A DNA stretch of 11,367 nucleotides from positions 1 to 11,367 of the forward strand of contig JAJRVM010000194.1 of NCBI GenBank assembly GCA_024277285.1, read 5' to 3'. The notes beneath the pieces are model-generated. The model was given only the letters and a program-made list of their open reading frames with translations. It did not search any database and had not been told where the DNA came from. A program made the position numbers and the translations under genes. This document shows, in pieces, positions 2,757-11,367 of this stretch. The first letter of the stretch is position 1. Every line of letters begins with the position of its first letter. Source of the DNA: Planctomycetota bacterium (GTDB taxonomy: Bacteria > Planctomycetota > Planctomycetia > Pirellulales > Pirellulaceae).

Positions 2757-3336
2757 GGGTGTACTCTGTCTTTTTTCGTTTTTCTTGTCAAAACTTCTGA
2801 TTCGTGTATGAATTCCCAGCAGTGCATGAAGTCGGATATCTTCTTGAATTCGCGGTTTTCCAGAATTTTCGCGAACCGCACGCCTTTTCAAGGGATGATC
2901 GCCAACCTGGCCAAACACCCCGATCAGTGTACATTCATGCTCCCCCGGACGCTTCGTTACCAATCGGCTAGAGTATTACAATAGCGTAACGTTTCACTCC
3001 GCGCCGAGACTAATGCCGTAAAGCTAACACCAGACGGGCTTTGGGTCAACTGGACGAGCAGCAAACAGGTCCGTGATCCCACTGGGCTACCGAAGGCAAG
3101 AAACTTGTTCTCTTGCACATATTCCAGCGACCAACGGGAGCGGGTCAATGCAGTCCGAGCGGTAGTTCGTAGTTGGTTGGCGGCCCTGCCGCCCTGTGTA
3201 ACTCAACTGTGCGAAACGTGGCAGCCAAGCCAACTGGCGCACGGGTGTCGTCCGCCGCAAACCATAATGGCCCGTTTAGAATCAACTGCCCCGTCAGAAA
3301 AAACAGGACGCCTGCTTCCCGAAAGCCCTCAACGCC
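2757..3336. other. Gene-free divergent region between helicase and HEAT-like gene
   Basis: These 580 bases separate two divergently oriented genes and should hold both promoters. The helicase-proximal third (2757-2830) is A/T-rich for this genome. An AT-rich patch, TATTACAATA, lies at 2974-2983. The structured repeat copy occupies 3075-3199. A -10-like TAGAAT lies at 3277-3282, about 55 bases before the HEAT-like ATG, but without a good -35. Short open frames here run through the repeat and show no family features, so I call none of them a gene. Confidence 0.5.
3075..3199 (+). repeat. Dispersed structured intergenic repeat, copy 1
   Basis: This is nearly identical to the reverse complement of 8921-9044. 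The core 3095-3199 aligns without gaps over 105 bases with six differences (3101, 3120, 3124, 3144, 3166, 3170). The preceding 20 bases match less well, with four differences and one extra C. On the plus strand it can fold as GCAAGA (3096-3101) with TCTTGC (3111-3116); CGAGC (3156-3160) with GTTCG (3165-3169) around GGTA; ACCAAC (3130-3135) with GTTGGT (3172-3177) enclosing that hairpin; and GGCGG (3179-3183) with CCGCC (3189-3193). It ends 138 bases before the HEAT-like start and reads toward it. No transposase and no flanking direct repeats are visible. Confidence 0.85.
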
Positions 3337-4890
3337 ATGGACTTACACTTTTCCTACTTGCTCGAATCGCTCCGTGATCCGGGGACGCTCGATGACACAC
3401 AAATGGAACAGTTCGTCAATTGCTGCGCCGTCATTGACGACCTGCCGACGGATGAATTGAACGAACTTTTCGACGCCATGCAACAGCACTGCTCGGCGCA
3501 CACATCGACCGGCGATGCTCCGCCCGAGCCACTACTCACCCCGGTGCTTGCCCGAACCGTCGTTCGACAGCATCGGCTGAGTGAGCCGATTGAAGAGGGA
3601 TTGCGGCAACGTGTCGTGTCGCTGTATGGCAGCCTGGGAACTGGCTCGCGATGTGCCTGGCGTTTACTCCAGTACCTGGCGACAGCCGCCACGCAAGCAG
3701 ATCTGGCCGCATTGACGGAGTGCATCATCGCAGCCCCTCCGGACGACCCGCAAGCGGCGGCCCTGGCACTCACCCCACTCTTCCAAAGCCGCGACTACGA
3801 TCCAACCCCTCTGTTCCCACACTTGTTCGCCTCATTGCAACATTTGAGCATCGCAGCACCGGTGCTCGACCTCTCAAACTACCTGGTTCGTTCCGGCATG
3901 CTCCATCAGCACCCGGCGGCCACACGCAGCGGTGACCTGGCCCAACTGCTCGGCAGCCTCGTCCAACAGCTAGGCCGTATCGAGGAGAATCCGGGAGCAA
4001 CCAGCAAGTCCCCCGAACAACTGGGTACCAAAGTGGATGAATGCGTATCACTTGTCGTTGCGCTCTGTGACGCCATGGCGTTGATTGGCAGCCGCTCGGT
4101 CGTCGGCAAACTCTACGACGCCATGGAGTTGGGACACCGGCGCATTCAAACGGAAGCGGCCGCAGCATTGGCCAAGCTGGGCGAGTCGGCAGGCGTCGAT
4201 CAACTCGTGCAACTCGCAGCCGAACCAGTTGCACGTTTGCGTGTGATTGCTCACGCGGAAGAGCTGAATATCGTCGACAAGATCGATGAGGCCTTACGCA
4301 CCGACGAAGCACGGGCAGAGGCCCAAATCGCCTTGGAATTGTCCCAGCCCACATTCTTCGGTGTGCCACCAAGCAAACTGGAACGAATCGATTCGCGGAC
4401 CCAATTTTGGCCGGGATACGATGCCCCCGTACTCTGCTTCCTGTTCCGATACGAATACCAATTCCAAGACGCTCTCTACAGCAACATTGCAATTGCGGGC
4501 CCGCTTGTACACGCCCTTGCCGCGGACCTGAGCGATTTCCCCCCAGGTGACATATACGCCGCTTATGCCGGCTGGGATCTGGACGATGAAAACGTATTTG
4601 AGATCCCGTTGGACGCTCCCACAATGGCCCAACGCGCCGAAGCGGAACGTCTCGAACGACGGCTGCATGATGCCCAATACGATGCGATCCAATCCTTGGT
4701 GTTAGGTTTCTTTTTCGGCGAGCGTGTGCTCGTCGCGCGCGCGCGACGCGAAGAAAGGACCGGGATCGTCGTTGTCGATCAATCGGCCATCGATTGGTTT
4801 CCCCTGCGAACGCTTCGGAACCCGATTGATGCGCACACCGCCTTTTGCATCTACCAAGGGCGCCGTCTACTCAGATCGTTTAACGGCTAA
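3337..4890 (+). CDS. HEAT-like alpha-helical repeat protein of unknown function
   Basis: This is a 517-residue protein with no signal peptide or membrane segment, so probably cytoplasmic. Residues 1-330 are rich in Leu/Ala helices. The stretch around 267-315 (RRIQTEAAAALAKLGE, then AVxxLRVIAHAEEL-like helices) looks like HEAT repeats, which usually serve as protein-binding scaffolds. From about residue 337 the composition changes to a compact domain rich in aromatic residues (FFGVPPSKLERID, then FWPGYD, FLFRYEY, IAIAGPLVHA, DIYAAYAGWD) up to about 430. A charged helical region and a C-terminal beta-rich segment follow. I do not recognise a catalytic motif and assign no enzyme function. The ATG at 3337 has no strong ribosome site. 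The alpha/beta hydrolase starts 82 bases downstream on the same strand, so co-transcription is possible. The structured repeat lies upstream. That this is a real gene is well supported by its length and codon pattern. Confidence 0.85.
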   Translation: MDLHFSYLLESLRDPGTLDDTQMEQFVNCCAVIDDLPTDELNELFDAMQQHCSAHTSTGDAPPEPLLTPVLARTVVRQHRLSEPIEEGLRQRVVSLYGSLGTGSRCAWRLLQYLATAATQADLAALTECIIAAPPDDPQAAALALTPLFQSRDYDPTPLFPHLFASLQHLSIAAPVLDLSNYLVRSGMLHQHPAATRSGDLAQLLGSLVQQLGRIEENPGATSKSPEQLGTKVDECVSLVVALCDAMALIGSRSVVGKLYDAMELGHRRIQTEAAAALAKLGESAGVDQLVQLAAEPVARLRVIAHAEELNIVDKIDEALRTDEARAEAQIALELSQPTFFGVPPSKLERIDSRTQFWPGYDAPVLCFLFRYEYQFQDALYSNIAIAGPLVHALAADLSDFPPGDIYAAYAGWDLDDENVFEIPLDAPTMAQRAEAERLERRLHDAQYDAIQSLVLGFFFGERVLVARARREERTGIVVVDQSAIDWFPLRTLRNPIDAHTAFCIYQGRRLLRSFNG

Positions 4891-6044: not shown

Positions 6045-8708
6045 TCAACGTCGTTGCTCTACTGGCGCGTCCTGCCGTCGAAACGGCGCGGCTGATCGGT
6101 CCCCATAACGCATCGATAACTGTAACCCGCTGCCATTGGCGGTGTAGAACAACCGTCCATTTGAAATCTGCGCGCCGACACACTGCAAGACGTCAACGGC
6201 TGGCCCCGTCGAAATGAGCCGGTTCCCGTTCGCCGTATCGATCACATCCATGTTCGGGCCGAGCAAGTAGTTACCATCCATCGTGAACCGAGTGCAACGA
6301 TAGTCTTTCGTCAATTCGCACAGTACTTTGCCGCTGTCCGCCTCCAGTAAGTACCCCTGCCGGTATTGAGCGTGCGTGAACAATCGGTTGCCCGCCACCG
6401 TGACGACATGTATCGCCCGTTCAATCGGATCCGATTTCCAAACGAGCTTGCCGTTCGCGGTATCAAGACACCATACGCGATTGGTCTTCCCTTCGATCGC
6501 ATTGTATCCGCCCAGGTAAAGCCGTCCGTCATGGACTGACGGAACACAACCTGCATGGACGGCATACTGAGTCGTCCGCCATTGAATTGCCCCGGTCTTG
6601 GCATCAATCGCTGCCGTCACTCCTTTCACTTTCTTATTGCCGAAATAGCACGAGTAGTAAAGCGTGCCTCCATCGAGACACATGCCCGCGTCGTCGCCAC
6701 CTTGACCGTACTCGGAAAAGTCCAAGGACCATACTTCACGACCGGTCTTCAAGTCCCAGGCCTTGACGAGCGGTTTCTGATCGGGGCCAAATCCGTACGT
6801 GCTCTGGTGTTCAAACAACCAATTTCGGCCAGTATAGTTCCCCGTACTGAATTGGTAGAAAATCAAACCGTCGTGGATCAATGGTGGCAACTGTCGATTC
6901 CAACTGGGCGAGCCAGTAAACGGCACTTCCCAAATCAGCTTGCCCGTGGCAGCATCAATGCAGCGCAAGCGACATTGTCGCAAACCGGCTTGGGGAAGAT
7001 ACAACCGCTCGTCATGGTACGCGGGTGTAGTAAAAGAGACGTGCACGCCCGGGTAATACGCGCGCCACAGCAGTCGTCCCGTCTCTTCTTCCACCGCCAT
7101 CACCTGCCCTTCAGCCGTGTGCGTATAAACGCGCCCACCACCGATCGTCGACAGATGTTTGATCGTGCCCTCGCAACGGCGAATCCACCGCATCGTCAGC
7201 GGCATCTTGACATGCTGTTGTGTCCGATTCGTGTTGGCCTGGTTGCCAAAATGCGTATCCCAGTTGTACTTGGCGGCAGCGTATTGCCCCTTAAGTGGAC
7301 TGCGAATACTCGCCAAGTCAAGCGGCAACTCTGGCAGCGAGGCTTTTCCGCCCGGCCCGAGAATATACAGGTACCCGTCCTCGCCACCAAAAACAACTTG
7401 CCCGTTGGCCACCGCCGCTGGAGCCGAGATCGGACGCCCGAACGGCGTTTGGAAGACCCAAGGCGACTGGTTTGAATCTAACGGCACGATCGCCAACCGC
7501 CCATCCAAACAGCTGACAATCACTCGATCACGCACCAGCATCGGCTGCGCAATTGAGGGAAAATCGCCCAGTGACGTTGTCTTGCCGTCGGCATGCCGAC
7601 ACAAACCGAATTGCTCCTCGGGGCGACAGCGAAAAACATCGCCATCACGAATACTGACCGCCGAGAAACTCATACTCGGATCACTGTGATAGTCCGTCGC
7701 GGTACCCGGCACGAACGTGGCAACCGGTTTTTGATTCACAATCCGCAACACCTCCACGCGCCCCGTATTGTCACGGCGAAACCACTGTCGGTACACACTC
7801 CCCTTATCATCCAAACTCAGCCCAAGTGTCGCCGGACTCTCGTTCGGTGCGTACCCTCCCAACATTTTGGCGACGTCGCCGTTATCGTGCAGCCAAACAA
7901 TCGAACCGCCAGCCGGGATGACCAACGTTCGACCATGCAACGCGATATTGCGTGAACATAGAAACTGCTCGCGCCACGTCACTCGACCATTCTGGTGTTT
8001 CAACCAATCCTGACCACTCCATCGGTCTCCGCTGAACTTGAGCACCTCGCGCACGTAATCCCATGTCCACCGCGTCTCGCCGGCCGGCGACAACGCAAAC
8101 ACGCGTGAACCAAGAGTCGCGAAATAGACCCGATCCGCTCCAACTACCGGGCATGAGAAAATCGGCTCACCAAGTTCAATCTTCCGCGCGACGCTGCCGT
8201 CACTCGCCTTCAACACGTAATAGTCGCCAGCCATCGTGCCGAAATGAATGTAGTCTCCCGCCACCACCGGGGCTGAGTAGTTGTTGCAATTCAATGGACT
8301 CGGGTCACTCGCGAACTTCCAAACAACGTCGAATGAACTGGCATCCACGCAGAAAAGCACTCCCGAACCGTCCAACACGAAAATGCGTCCATGATCGATC
8401 ACCGGGGAGGCAAACACCGAGTCGGTCAACGGGAGCGCCGCTTGAAGACCTAGCGGGACCTTCAGCTGGATCTCGCTGGCGTTGCCGGAATGCTCGCTGT
8501 CGAAACCATGCTGTGGCCAACTCTCATTCGATTGCACCGACACGGGCCGCATTGCGATCACTAGCATCAACCACACGATGACGCCAAACCCAGCGTTTCC
8601 ACAGACGCACGCAAGTGCCCTTGCAACCGAACCGGGGCTATGCATCACTCCCGCAACTGCTCGTGTCCCACAACCGACAAGACAACAAGTACTACGAACT
8701 CGCTTCAT
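6045..8708 (-). CDS. Large exported PQQ-like beta-propeller repeat protein
   Basis: This 887-residue protein is built almost entirely from PQQ-like (quinoprotein-type) propeller blades, recognisable by repeated D-x-x-T/S-G-x-x-x-W strands. Examples are CVDASSFDVVWKF near 120-131, AVEEETGRLLWRAY, CIDAATGKLIWEV, AWDLKTGREVWSL, AIDAKTGAIQWRT and CLDTANGKLVWKS. Roughly ten or more such motifs suggest two propellers, with a central linker around 440-500. A Cys-rich N-terminus is followed by a hydrophobic segment at 42-53, so it is secreted or membrane-anchored. WPQHGFDSEHSG right after this resembles the entry motif of exported planctomycete propellers. I see no dehydrogenase active-site signature or haem CXXCH, so a binding or structural role is more likely than an enzyme. 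The ATG at 8708 has GAGGAAG just upstream; an internal ATG at 8645, preceded by GGGAG, is an alternative. The second repeat copy lies 213 bases upstream in the same orientation. Confidence 0.9.
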   Translation of the reverse strand: MKRVRSTCCLVGCGTRAVAGVMHSPGSVARALACVCGNAGFGVIVWLMLVIAMRPVSVQSNESWPQHGFDSEHSGNASEIQLKVPLGLQAALPLTDSVFASPVIDHGRIFVLDGSGVLFCVDASSFDVVWKFASDPSPLNCNNYSAPVVAGDYIHFGTMAGDYYVLKASDGSVARKIELGEPIFSCPVVGADRVYFATLGSRVFALSPAGETRWTWDYVREVLKFSGDRWSGQDWLKHQNGRVTWREQFLCSRNIALHGRTLVIPAGGSIVWLHDNGDVAKMLGGYAPNESPATLGLSLDDKGSVYRQWFRRDNTGRVEVLRIVNQKPVATFVPGTATDYHSDPSMSFSAVSIRDGDVFRCRPEEQFGLCRHADGKTTSLGDFPSIAQPMLVRDRVIVSCLDGRLAIVPLDSNQSPWVFQTPFGRPISAPAAVANGQVVFGGEDGYLYILGPGGKASLPELPLDLASIRSPLKGQYAAAKYNWDTHFGNQANTNRTQQHVKMPLTMRWIRRCEGTIKHLSTIGGGRVYTHTAEGQVMAVEEETGRLLWRAYYPGVHVSFTTPAYHDERLYLPQAGLRQCRLRCIDAATGKLIWEVPFTGSPSWNRQLPPLIHDGLIFYQFSTGNYTGRNWLFEHQSTYGFGPDQKPLVKAWDLKTGREVWSLDFSEYGQGGDDAGMCLDGGTLYYSCYFGNKKVKGVTAAIDAKTGAIQWRTTQYAVHAGCVPSVHDGRLYLGGYNAIEGKTNRVWCLDTANGKLVWKSDPIERAIHVVTVAGNRLFTHAQYRQGYLLEADSGKVLCELTKDYRCTRFTMDGNYLLGPNMDVIDTANGNRLISTGPAVDVLQCVGAQISNGRLFYTANGSGLQLSMRYGDRSAAPFRRQDAPVEQRR

Positions 8709-8920: not shown

Positions 8921-9044
8921 ACACAGGGCGGCAGGGCCGCCAACCAACTGCGAGCTACCGCTCGGACTGCATTGATCCGCTCCCGTTGGTCGCTGAAATT
9001 TGTGCAAGAGAACAAGTTCCTTGCCGTTAGTAGCACAGTGGATC
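8921..9044 (-). repeat. Dispersed structured intergenic repeat, copy 2 (inverted relative to copy 1)
   Basis: The reverse complement of 8921-9025 matches 3095-3199 at 99 of 105 positions by hand alignment, with weaker similarity on to about 9044. Read on the minus strand it keeps the same hairpins: CGAGC-GGTA-GCTCG, now fully Watson-Crick; GCAAGG with TCTTGC, closing with G.U; ACCAAC with GTTGGT; and GGCGG-CCCTG-CCGCC. It reads toward the PQQ-like gene and ends 213 bases before its start. It also lies downstream of the DUF1559 gene, so it could belong to that transcript's 3' end instead. Confidence 0.85.
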
Positions 9045-10537: not shown

Positions 10538-10909
10538 TCAAAACACCATTCGTTTGAACTCAACGCGTTCGCGTCCAAAATTCAACAGCATTCCCACCTT
10601 GATACCGGTCGCCTTCAGCTCATTGAGCAGCTGTGCCTCGTCCGCACGGTTATATTCCTTTGCCACCTTCACCTCTACGATCACTCGCTCGTCGACAAAC
10701 AGATCCGCCCGGTAGACGCCCACATTGGTGCCCTTGTACAGAACGTCGATCCGCCGCTCCGTCTCGCACAACGCGTTCGCGCCCAACAACTCGACTTGCA
10801 TCGACTGCCGGTACACGCTTGCGAGAAACCCATATCCAAGCGTGTTGTAAACCTCAAACGCCGCTCCCACGATCTTTCCGGTCGTCTCCTTGTGCAGCAA
10901 CTCGGGCAT
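10538..10909 (-). CDS. GxxExxY-family protein (PD-(D/E)XK-like) lacking the signature Glu
   Basis: From the ATG at 10909 this has 123 residues, close to the usual family length. The order matches GxxExxY proteins: a first helix TTGKIVGAAFEVYNTLG, the signature region GFLASVY (27-33), a beta-hairpin ERRIDVLYKG, a core strand RADLFVDERVIVEVKV, then a helix with EAQLLNELKATG and a final GMLLNFG strand. Asp69 and Glu79-x-Lys81 fit a nuclease-like PD-(D/E)XK core. The family-defining Glu is Ala30 (GCA codon at 10820-10822), one base from GAA. In-frame ATGs at 10942 and 10975 are alternatives. The one at 10909 has GGGGTG upstream and matches the family's N-terminus. The biochemical function of the family is not known. 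It is a cytoplasmic protein, probably transcribed alone, with a minisatellite upstream. Confidence 0.88.
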   Translation of the reverse strand: MPELLHKETTGKIVGAAFEVYNTLGYGFLASVYRQSMQVELLGANALCETERRIDVLYKGTNVGVYRADLFVDERVIVEVKVAKEYNRADEAQLLNELKATGIKVGMLLNFGRERVEFKRMVF

Positions 10910-11074
10910 TGTCTTCACCCCACAATTGCGGTCGCTGTTCATCACTGCCCCGCTGCCACGGCTCAGTCTCAACACGCGGCACTTGAGCTCCCTACATAGC
11001 TAATCACCAAACGCACCCAAAACCCCTCACGGAAAATAGAATTTTTTTGGCTGCCAATCCCTGCCGACTTCTGA

Positions 11075-11367
11075 CGACACGGAGCAGGATGCGAGGAGGA
11101 GGGCCACGGATGGAACACGGATCGACACGGAGCGGGGCGCGAGGGGAGGCCACGGATGGAACACGGATCGACACGGAGCGGGGCGCGAGGGGGGGCCACG
11201 GATGGAACACGGATCGACACGGAGCGGGGCGCGAGGGAGGGCCACGGATGGCACACGGATCGACACGGAGCGGGGCGCGAGGGAGGGCCACGGATGGAAC
11301 ACGGATCGACACGGAGCGGGGCGCGAGGGGGGGCCACGGATGGAACACGGATCGACACGGAGCGGGG
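11075..11367. repeat. 46-bp minisatellite array, running off the window edge
   Basis: The block starting CCACGGATGG recurs at 11104, 11150, 11196, 11242, 11288 and 11334, an exact 46-base period with no spacers. A degenerate partial unit with a 2-base insertion (11075-11103) precedes it, and the last unit is cut by the window end. Each unit holds three CACGGA sub-motifs about ten bases apart, then a GC-rich tail with a G-tract. Units differ at one A/C position (11252) and in the seven-base G-tract (GGGGAGG, GGGGGGG or GGGAGGG). The unit has no stop codon on the minus strand, and 46 is not a multiple of three, so all minus frames stay open. The proline-rich frames there are repeat artefacts. 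Confidence 0.95.

Follow-up and report, generated by a model that had tools for sequence, protein, structure and literature searches.

Two nearly identical intergenic repeats, placed in opposite orientation and each in front of a gene, raise the question of whether they regulate the genes that they face or are copies of a mobile DNA. We examined this in the window (the whole stretch of 11,367 nt that was analysed, which makes up the planctomycete contig JAJRVM010000194.1 in full) and in related genomes. The most likely answer is that the repeat is a mobile element rather than a regulator, REP-related in design and failing two REP tests, those of size and of a transposase gene flanked by the repeat.

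The repeat pair in the window

A repeat search of the window found a single long inverted pair, with arms of 121 nt at 3079-3199 and 8921-9041 that are 92% complementary. This agrees with the original prediction of two near-identical inverted copies: base-by-base comparison gave ten differences over the 121 nt, seven of which are transitions, and six differences, five of them transitions, in the 105-nt stretch 3095-3199 that had been described as the core. Both copies lie outside called genes and, as had also been noted, each reads on its own strand toward the start codon of the next gene, the ATG of a HEAT-like gene at 3337 for copy 1 and the ATG of a PQQ-like gene at 8708 for copy 2. Copy 1 is flanked by a DEAD-box helicase gene and the HEAT-like gene, and copy 2 by the PQQ/BamB-like gene and a DUF1559 gene. 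The closest other relative of the HEAT-like protein is 69% identical and that of the PQQ-like protein 84%; relatives of the former, where the organism is named, come from Pirellulaceae, from another planctomycete group or from a plain 'bacterium'. Comparison with relatives revealed a short direct repeat of an end tag, with CTGTG at both ends of copy 2 and CTGGG/CTGTG in copy 1. The features of the two copies are as follows.

3082 to 3198, plus strand: complete unit of copy 1 with both of its tags, 117 nt (repeat arm; unit limits inferred from relatives)
3126 to 3198, plus strand: conserved 73-nt core of copy 1, found with model R1 (cmsearch 92.0 bits, E 4e-19; the window is in the R1 training set)
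3156 to 3169, plus strand: hairpin H1 of copy 1, CGAGC-GGTA-GTTCG (covariation, 112 distinct copies)
3179 to 3193, plus strand: hairpin H2 of copy 1, GGCGGC-CCT-GCCGCC, beside the 3' tag (covariation, 112 distinct copies; five stem pairs modelled)
3082 to 3086, plus strand: 5' tag position of copy 1, CTGGG, family form CTGTR (direct reading; alignment of relatives)
3194 to 3198, plus strand: 3' tag of copy 1, CTGTG (direct reading; alignment of relatives)
8922 to 9038, minus strand: copy 2, whole unit, 117 nt (repeat arm; limits as for copy 1)
8922 to 8994, minus strand: conserved 73-nt core of copy 2 (cmsearch 95.9 bits, E 4.9e-20; in the R1 training set)
8951 to 8964, minus strand: hairpin H1 of copy 2, CGAGC-GGTA-GCTCG (covariation)
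8927 to 8941, minus strand: hairpin H2 of copy 2 (covariation)
9034 to 9038, minus strand: 5' tag of copy 2, CTGTG (direct reading)
8922 to 8926, minus strand: 3' tag of copy 2, CTGTG (direct reading)

Single window copies fold no better than shuffled sequences (z +0.36 and +0.12), so a structure is supported only when many copies are compared. The window also holds a tandem array of a 46-nt unit at 11075-11367 (6.3 copies, 95% matches), which reaches the contig end, and a gene of the PDDEXK_3 family at 10538-10975 on the minus strand (Pfam E 8.6e-33).

Anatomy and distribution of the family

The unit measures about 105-120 nt and consists, in order on the strand of copy 1, of a 5' tag, some 40 nt of 5' sequence whose similarity is mainly confined to a lineage, the stretch AGCGACCAACGGGAGCGG, a variable stretch, H1 (CGAGC, a four-base loop that by eye is mostly GGTA, and GCTCG), a short linker, H2 and a 3' tag. 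The 73-nt core with its two hairpins has been conserved through compensatory change. Among 113 copies aligned from 100 chosen sources (112 distinct rows), 97.7% of pair cells were standard versus 89.0% in shuffled controls, and there were 93 double-change cells versus 14.8, although this last count is leaned by the fitting of the 112-row alignment to the structure; the unfitted 31-row alignment already has changes on both sides at 4 of 12 pairs. The signal vanished when the partner position was slid. A covariance model had been proposed as a check, and its outcome is that covariation maintains a structure of two hairpins. Cells with G-U numbered 20 versus 13 with A-C, so that the counts do not clearly mark either strand as the RNA, and the structure may act as RNA or as single-stranded DNA, on either strand. 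Protein coding, which had been judged unlikely, is unlikely indeed because the core length is free modulo 3 (23, 45 and 45 of 113 copies) and none of the reading frames stays open throughout the copies; a search with copy 2 read as protein gave no homologue. Two further candidates for structure were rejected, namely a 5' hairpin visible by eye in the window copies, which had no covariation in five lineage sets, and a tRNA-like look of the H1/H2 stretch, a likeness that by eye the consensus does not keep.

A BLAST search with copy 1, in which as a rule no more than three candidates per genome were scored, matched 21 of the 241 genomes of the family of genome G001 at E <= 0.001 (best 6e-21). When the loci were searched locally with BLAST, 38 places emerged, of which 34 entered a first alignment; 29 of these, joined by the two window copies, became the 31 rows of covariance model R1, the two rows of L036 and those of L069, L070 and L071 having been dropped. 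R1 detected the element in 19 of the 241 family genomes at E <= 1e-6. Eighteen genomes were common to both lists. R1 added G148 and did not recover G024, G156 or G202, whose BLAST matches had all been short. A phylum-wide search with R1 matched 5 of 392 genomes, G149 included. The filters were strict and the candidates per genome few, and these family and phylum counts are therefore lower bounds. Copy number at E <= 0.01 in ten chosen genomes, with no more than 150 candidates scored in each, was at least 150 in each of G077 and G082, 116 in G005, 93 in G043, 37 in G147, 18 in G149, nine in G196, seven in G058 and four each in G065 and G195. Congeners differ in number, with 32 copies in G147 and 18 in G149 at E <= 0.001, one match at E <= 1e-6 in G148, and G144 not among the 19 matching genomes.

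Searches of plasmids and phages gave no real match (two Haloferax matches of 27 nt, E 0.4, lay inside a gene). Exact-pattern searches of viral contigs and genome contigs gave nothing, the second pattern (RTCAATG) being probably too lineage-specific. Rfam had no match in the window at the gathering score, in keeping with the suggestion that the element has not been described, and six loci searched at E <= 1 gave three weak matches, none on the element. Locus L036 carries an 84-nt tandem array at 3925-4168 (2.9 copies) with H1-like and H2-like hairpins and weak model matches; the usual core start is absent, and the array is possibly a distant relative of the element.

End tags, arrays and gene boundaries

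Each unit has the same short tag at both ends, and this tag differs between lineages. It is CTAC in G147 and G149 (per base 59-85% at the 5' end and 74-92% at the 3' end; 39 copies), CTAG in G005 (70-90% and 85-95%; 20 copies) and, as read by eye, ACTTG in G082, TTAG in G516 and CTGTG in the window, the window's nearest relatives and G043. Past the 3' tag, conservation drops in G005 and, one G further on, in the CTAC lineages; the boundary is less sharp in G082 because many 3' flanks there go on with GTGGC. Copy-by-copy matching of the two tags within genomes was weak (p 0.016 in G005, 0.049 in G149, 0.16 in G147 and 0.43 in G082) in a permutation test that included array members and in which the G082 3' anchor was displaced. 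In G147 the six bases past the tag also match slightly (p 0.011). The tag is mostly a property of the lineage, which fits target choice and not random target duplication. Unlike in a classical MITE, terminal inverted repeats with target duplication were not found: in agreement with the original prediction, inspection by eye showed no terminal inverted repeat, either in the two window copies or among those aligned. 'CT' was considered as the invariant of the tag and was ruled out by the TTAG of G516.

In G147 and G149, 87% of the 39 copies have a G immediately past the 3' CTAC, and the joint of the L127 array is without this G; the CTAC lineages behave as if the target were CTAC followed by G. 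At L133 4001+ and L142 4001+ the 5' start departs from the consensus and matches 9 nt of the copy's own 3' flank.

A pair of tags that changes at both ends together between lineages is what the reprogrammable guide of an IS110-type (DEDD, bridge-RNA) element would allow, and CT occurs in four of the five tags, with the same tag at both ends. The element would on this account be a miniature derivative of such a transposon. However, the TTAG lineage breaks the CT rule, and the IS110 transposase, which was present in five of ten element-bearing genomes tested, was absent at E <= 1e-10 from G005, G082, G077, G065 and G196 (incomplete assemblies could hide one). We consider an IS110 origin very unlikely.

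Clusters of two to four units made up 11 of 86, and nine of the 11 have head-to-tail spacing of 104-114 nt, the other two having spacings of 296 and 380. Pieces consisting of the 3' hairpin and tag stand directly upstream of a full unit at L127 3941-3959, L132 4113-4131, L181 3940-3958, L187 4116-4134, L200 3946-3966, L204 4107-4127 and L208 4106-4126, and an eighth, at L201 4171-4191, lies between two other copies. Most of these resemble 5'-truncated units, and the L204 piece, at a contig end, may be a whole unit. At L199 4381-4446 and L201 4297-4349, 5' parts of the element are fused to another repeat with TTTGTAGCTACGTT.

Pieces of this kind, which keep the 3' hairpin and tag, lack the 5' part and in G147, G005 and G082 immediately precede complete copies, are consistent with retroposition of a structured, SINE-like RNA copied by a reverse transcriptase in trans, as is the conserved RNA-like structure. 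Deletion or unequal exchange would explain the pieces as well, however, because seven of the eight abut a full unit, and the element's ends match a fixed tag, which argues against such copying. Retroposition is accordingly a doubtful explanation to which we give little weight.

The genomic context was analysed at loci from six genomes, nearly all of them centred on copies and thus not random, with a simple codon-usage gene caller. At a gene score above 20 and an overlap above 60 nt, 99 of 100 copies were intergenic at loci of which called genes cover 60-81%. The expectation of numerous dispersed copies at intergenic sites was borne out in related genomes. A lower gene cut-off brought six of the 100 copies into overlap with open reading frames, four scoring 17-18, one 43 and one 130. 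On the 3' side of the 99 intergenic copies the neighbouring gene presented a stop in 51 cases and a start in 45, with no gene in three, and on the 5' side a start in 63 and a stop in 29. Within 40 nt there were 29 stops and five starts on the 3' side and eight stops and nine starts on the 5' side (Fisher p 0.007, arrays collapsed). A TAG stop lies inside the tag of 17 of the 99 copies. In G082, where the tag is free of stops, a stop is nevertheless found at a distance of 2-9 nt from three copies, and the tag alone may thus not explain the preference. Nine neighbours, picked because they abut the 3' end, share no theme (metK, pgi, carB, a leuA-like gene, an efflux protein, DUF1559 and others). 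Orientation of the element gave no signal against local GC skew (p 0.83; the loci are short and the test weak) and opposes the local gene majority (p 0.0045).

These boundaries bear on the idea that the repeat acts in cis, as a regulatory RNA or leader carried upstream of particular genes. In its favour, both window copies aim at a start codon, H1 and H2 covary strongly, and neither an Rfam match nor a homologue for copy 2 read as protein was found. A strand bias toward a downstream start codon, the test that came with the original prediction, nevertheless failed to appear in the wider sample, and close to gene boundaries the preference runs the other way. The nine 3'-abutting neighbours are unrelated genes, the G-U and A-C counts do not clearly favour either strand, and congeners are without the element at three sites (described below). 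A leader or regulatory RNA is in our judgement quite unlikely. From the prediction of a dispersed regulatory or RNA element, dispersal and structure stand, whereas regulation is not supported; mobility is the better explanation of the dispersal, given the presence and absence of the element at orthologous sites.

Short folded units that are able to follow a stop codon and to stand in tandem also call to mind integron attC sites or cassette remnants. The boxes of attC sites are GTTRRRY and RYYYAAC. By eye, the consensus ends of the element are tags of the CTAC/CTAG/CTGTG type and not an R box pair, and the nine sampled neighbours include housekeeping genes. Both points speak against an attC origin, which is hardly credible.

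Probable insertion, likeness to known elements and the candidate enzyme

Orthologous sites were followed in four congeners, G144, G147, G148 and G149. The element follows metK in G149 only; two tandem units follow leuA in G147 and none in G149, G148 or G144; and the element follows pgi in G149 and is absent from G147, G148 and G144. Across these 12 orthologous loci R1 gave strong matches only at L216, L244 and L274 and nothing at E <= 0.4 in the other nine. The joint after metK reads CG-TAG-TTG in G147 versus CG-TAG-(element)-GTAG in G149; because sequences flanking the empty sites have diverged, this joint is placed only approximately. These patterns are most simply read as insertion, and loss in three genomes per site is less simple.

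We compared the unit with known mobile repeats. GTAG repeats have been reported in Planctomycetes, with several REP families in R. baltica, and their termini often give flanking ORFs a TAG stop (Di Nocera et al. 2013, PMC3733652). They are thought to be moved by a Y1 transposase, TnpA-REP (PMC3733652, PMC8266576, PMC6006769). Like GTAG REPs, the element is high-copy (at least 150 copies in G077 and G082) and extragenic (99 of 100), and its tag can supply a TAG stop (17 of 99). In the CTAC lineages its bottom strand reads GTAG, immediately adjoined by a stem of 6 bp that closes a loop of 3 nt. This GTAG-at-stem tag is present in G147 and G149, whereas the window, G005, G082 and G516 carry other tags, and at the foot of H2 the window copies have CACAG, unlike the GTAG of GTAG REPs. 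Also unlike GTAG REPs, which are palindromes of 20-40 bp, the unit is about 105-120 nt long, such that only H2 fits; it has a non-palindromic conserved core; its tag varies by lineage; and H2 plus tag was found without a full unit eight times in 540 kb of copy-centred loci, each time in or beside a cluster. A literature search by title and start of abstract found no description of the element; H2 may overlap with one of the R. baltica REP consensus sequences.

The TnpA-REP/RAYT REPtrons (PMC8266576, PMC6006769) would fit in that what is recognized there is a single strand folded into a hairpin, with four specific nucleotides at its foot. Genes of the Y1_Tnp family occurred in 12 of 12 element-bearing genomes tested and also in eight of ten genomes without the element, and their presence thus proves nothing. 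Unlike in REPtrons, no Y1 gene was found flanked by the element: none of 30 Y1 loci (taken from 136 Y1 matches, 19 of the 30 from element-bearing genomes) had an R1 match at E <= 0.1, and many of them carry other repeats on both sides. In G149, G147 and G043 the copy closest to any of the 17 Y1 genes listed was 18.7 kb away, and four of these genes were on copy-free contigs. A search of three genomes with an 18-mer of the core gave 114 matches. No autonomous parent sharing the element's ends was found among the 103 that coincide with model matches; the other 11 are four with 1-2 mismatches in G149/G147 and seven in G043. As no Y1 gene was found flanked by the element, we infer the moving enzyme rather than show it. 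One Y1 gene of an element-free genome, at L161, lies between inverted copies of a different repeat (1305-1366 and 1998-2059), which holds a CCAACGGGA stretch resembling part of the core and gives weak model matches (E 0.21).

Miniature elements derived from IS200/IS605 insert 3' of a fixed short target, free of a variable target duplication, and have hairpins near both ends. The element is like these in its fixed short tag and 3' hairpin, and unlike them in that no parent was found, a 5' hairpin is without covariation and one tag serves for both ends. As to the mode of insertion, the tags fit, the joint is placed only approximately, and in two copies 9 nt recur in the flank.

Taking these likenesses together with the empty sites, we think that the element is probably a non-autonomous, site-specific mobile DNA resembling GTAG-tagged REPs, with a Y1/HUH enzyme acting in trans as our best guess. 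The element would insert beside a tag sequence that is already present in the DNA. As its far end brings along a tag of its own, insertion would restore the tag, together with any stop codon in it, and the tag could be used again, and a restored tag that receives the next copy would give rise to arrays. A single-strand transposase of the Y1/HUH type (of the TnpA-REP or IS200/IS605 kind), supplied in trans, may recognize the folded H2 and its tag, as in GTAG-tagged REPs, although this step is less certain than the choice of site. Any function for the host would be secondary.

A different possibility, which we regard as unlikely, is that the folded core itself carries the targeting information, with its strand, as DNA or RNA, guiding a host-encoded enzyme to the tag; this would make the element a previously undescribed class of mobile DNA. 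If that were true, small changes in the element would retarget whole lineages from CTAC to CTGTG, CTAG, ACTTG or TTAG.

The repeat adds a sizeable dispersed family to planctomycete genomes and warns against taking every conserved structure with covariation in front of a gene for a riboswitch or leader. Lineages with tags of their own, matched at both ends, are natural experiments in retargeting, and a mobile element that encodes no protein lets one ask how a target is chosen and which enzyme moves the element.
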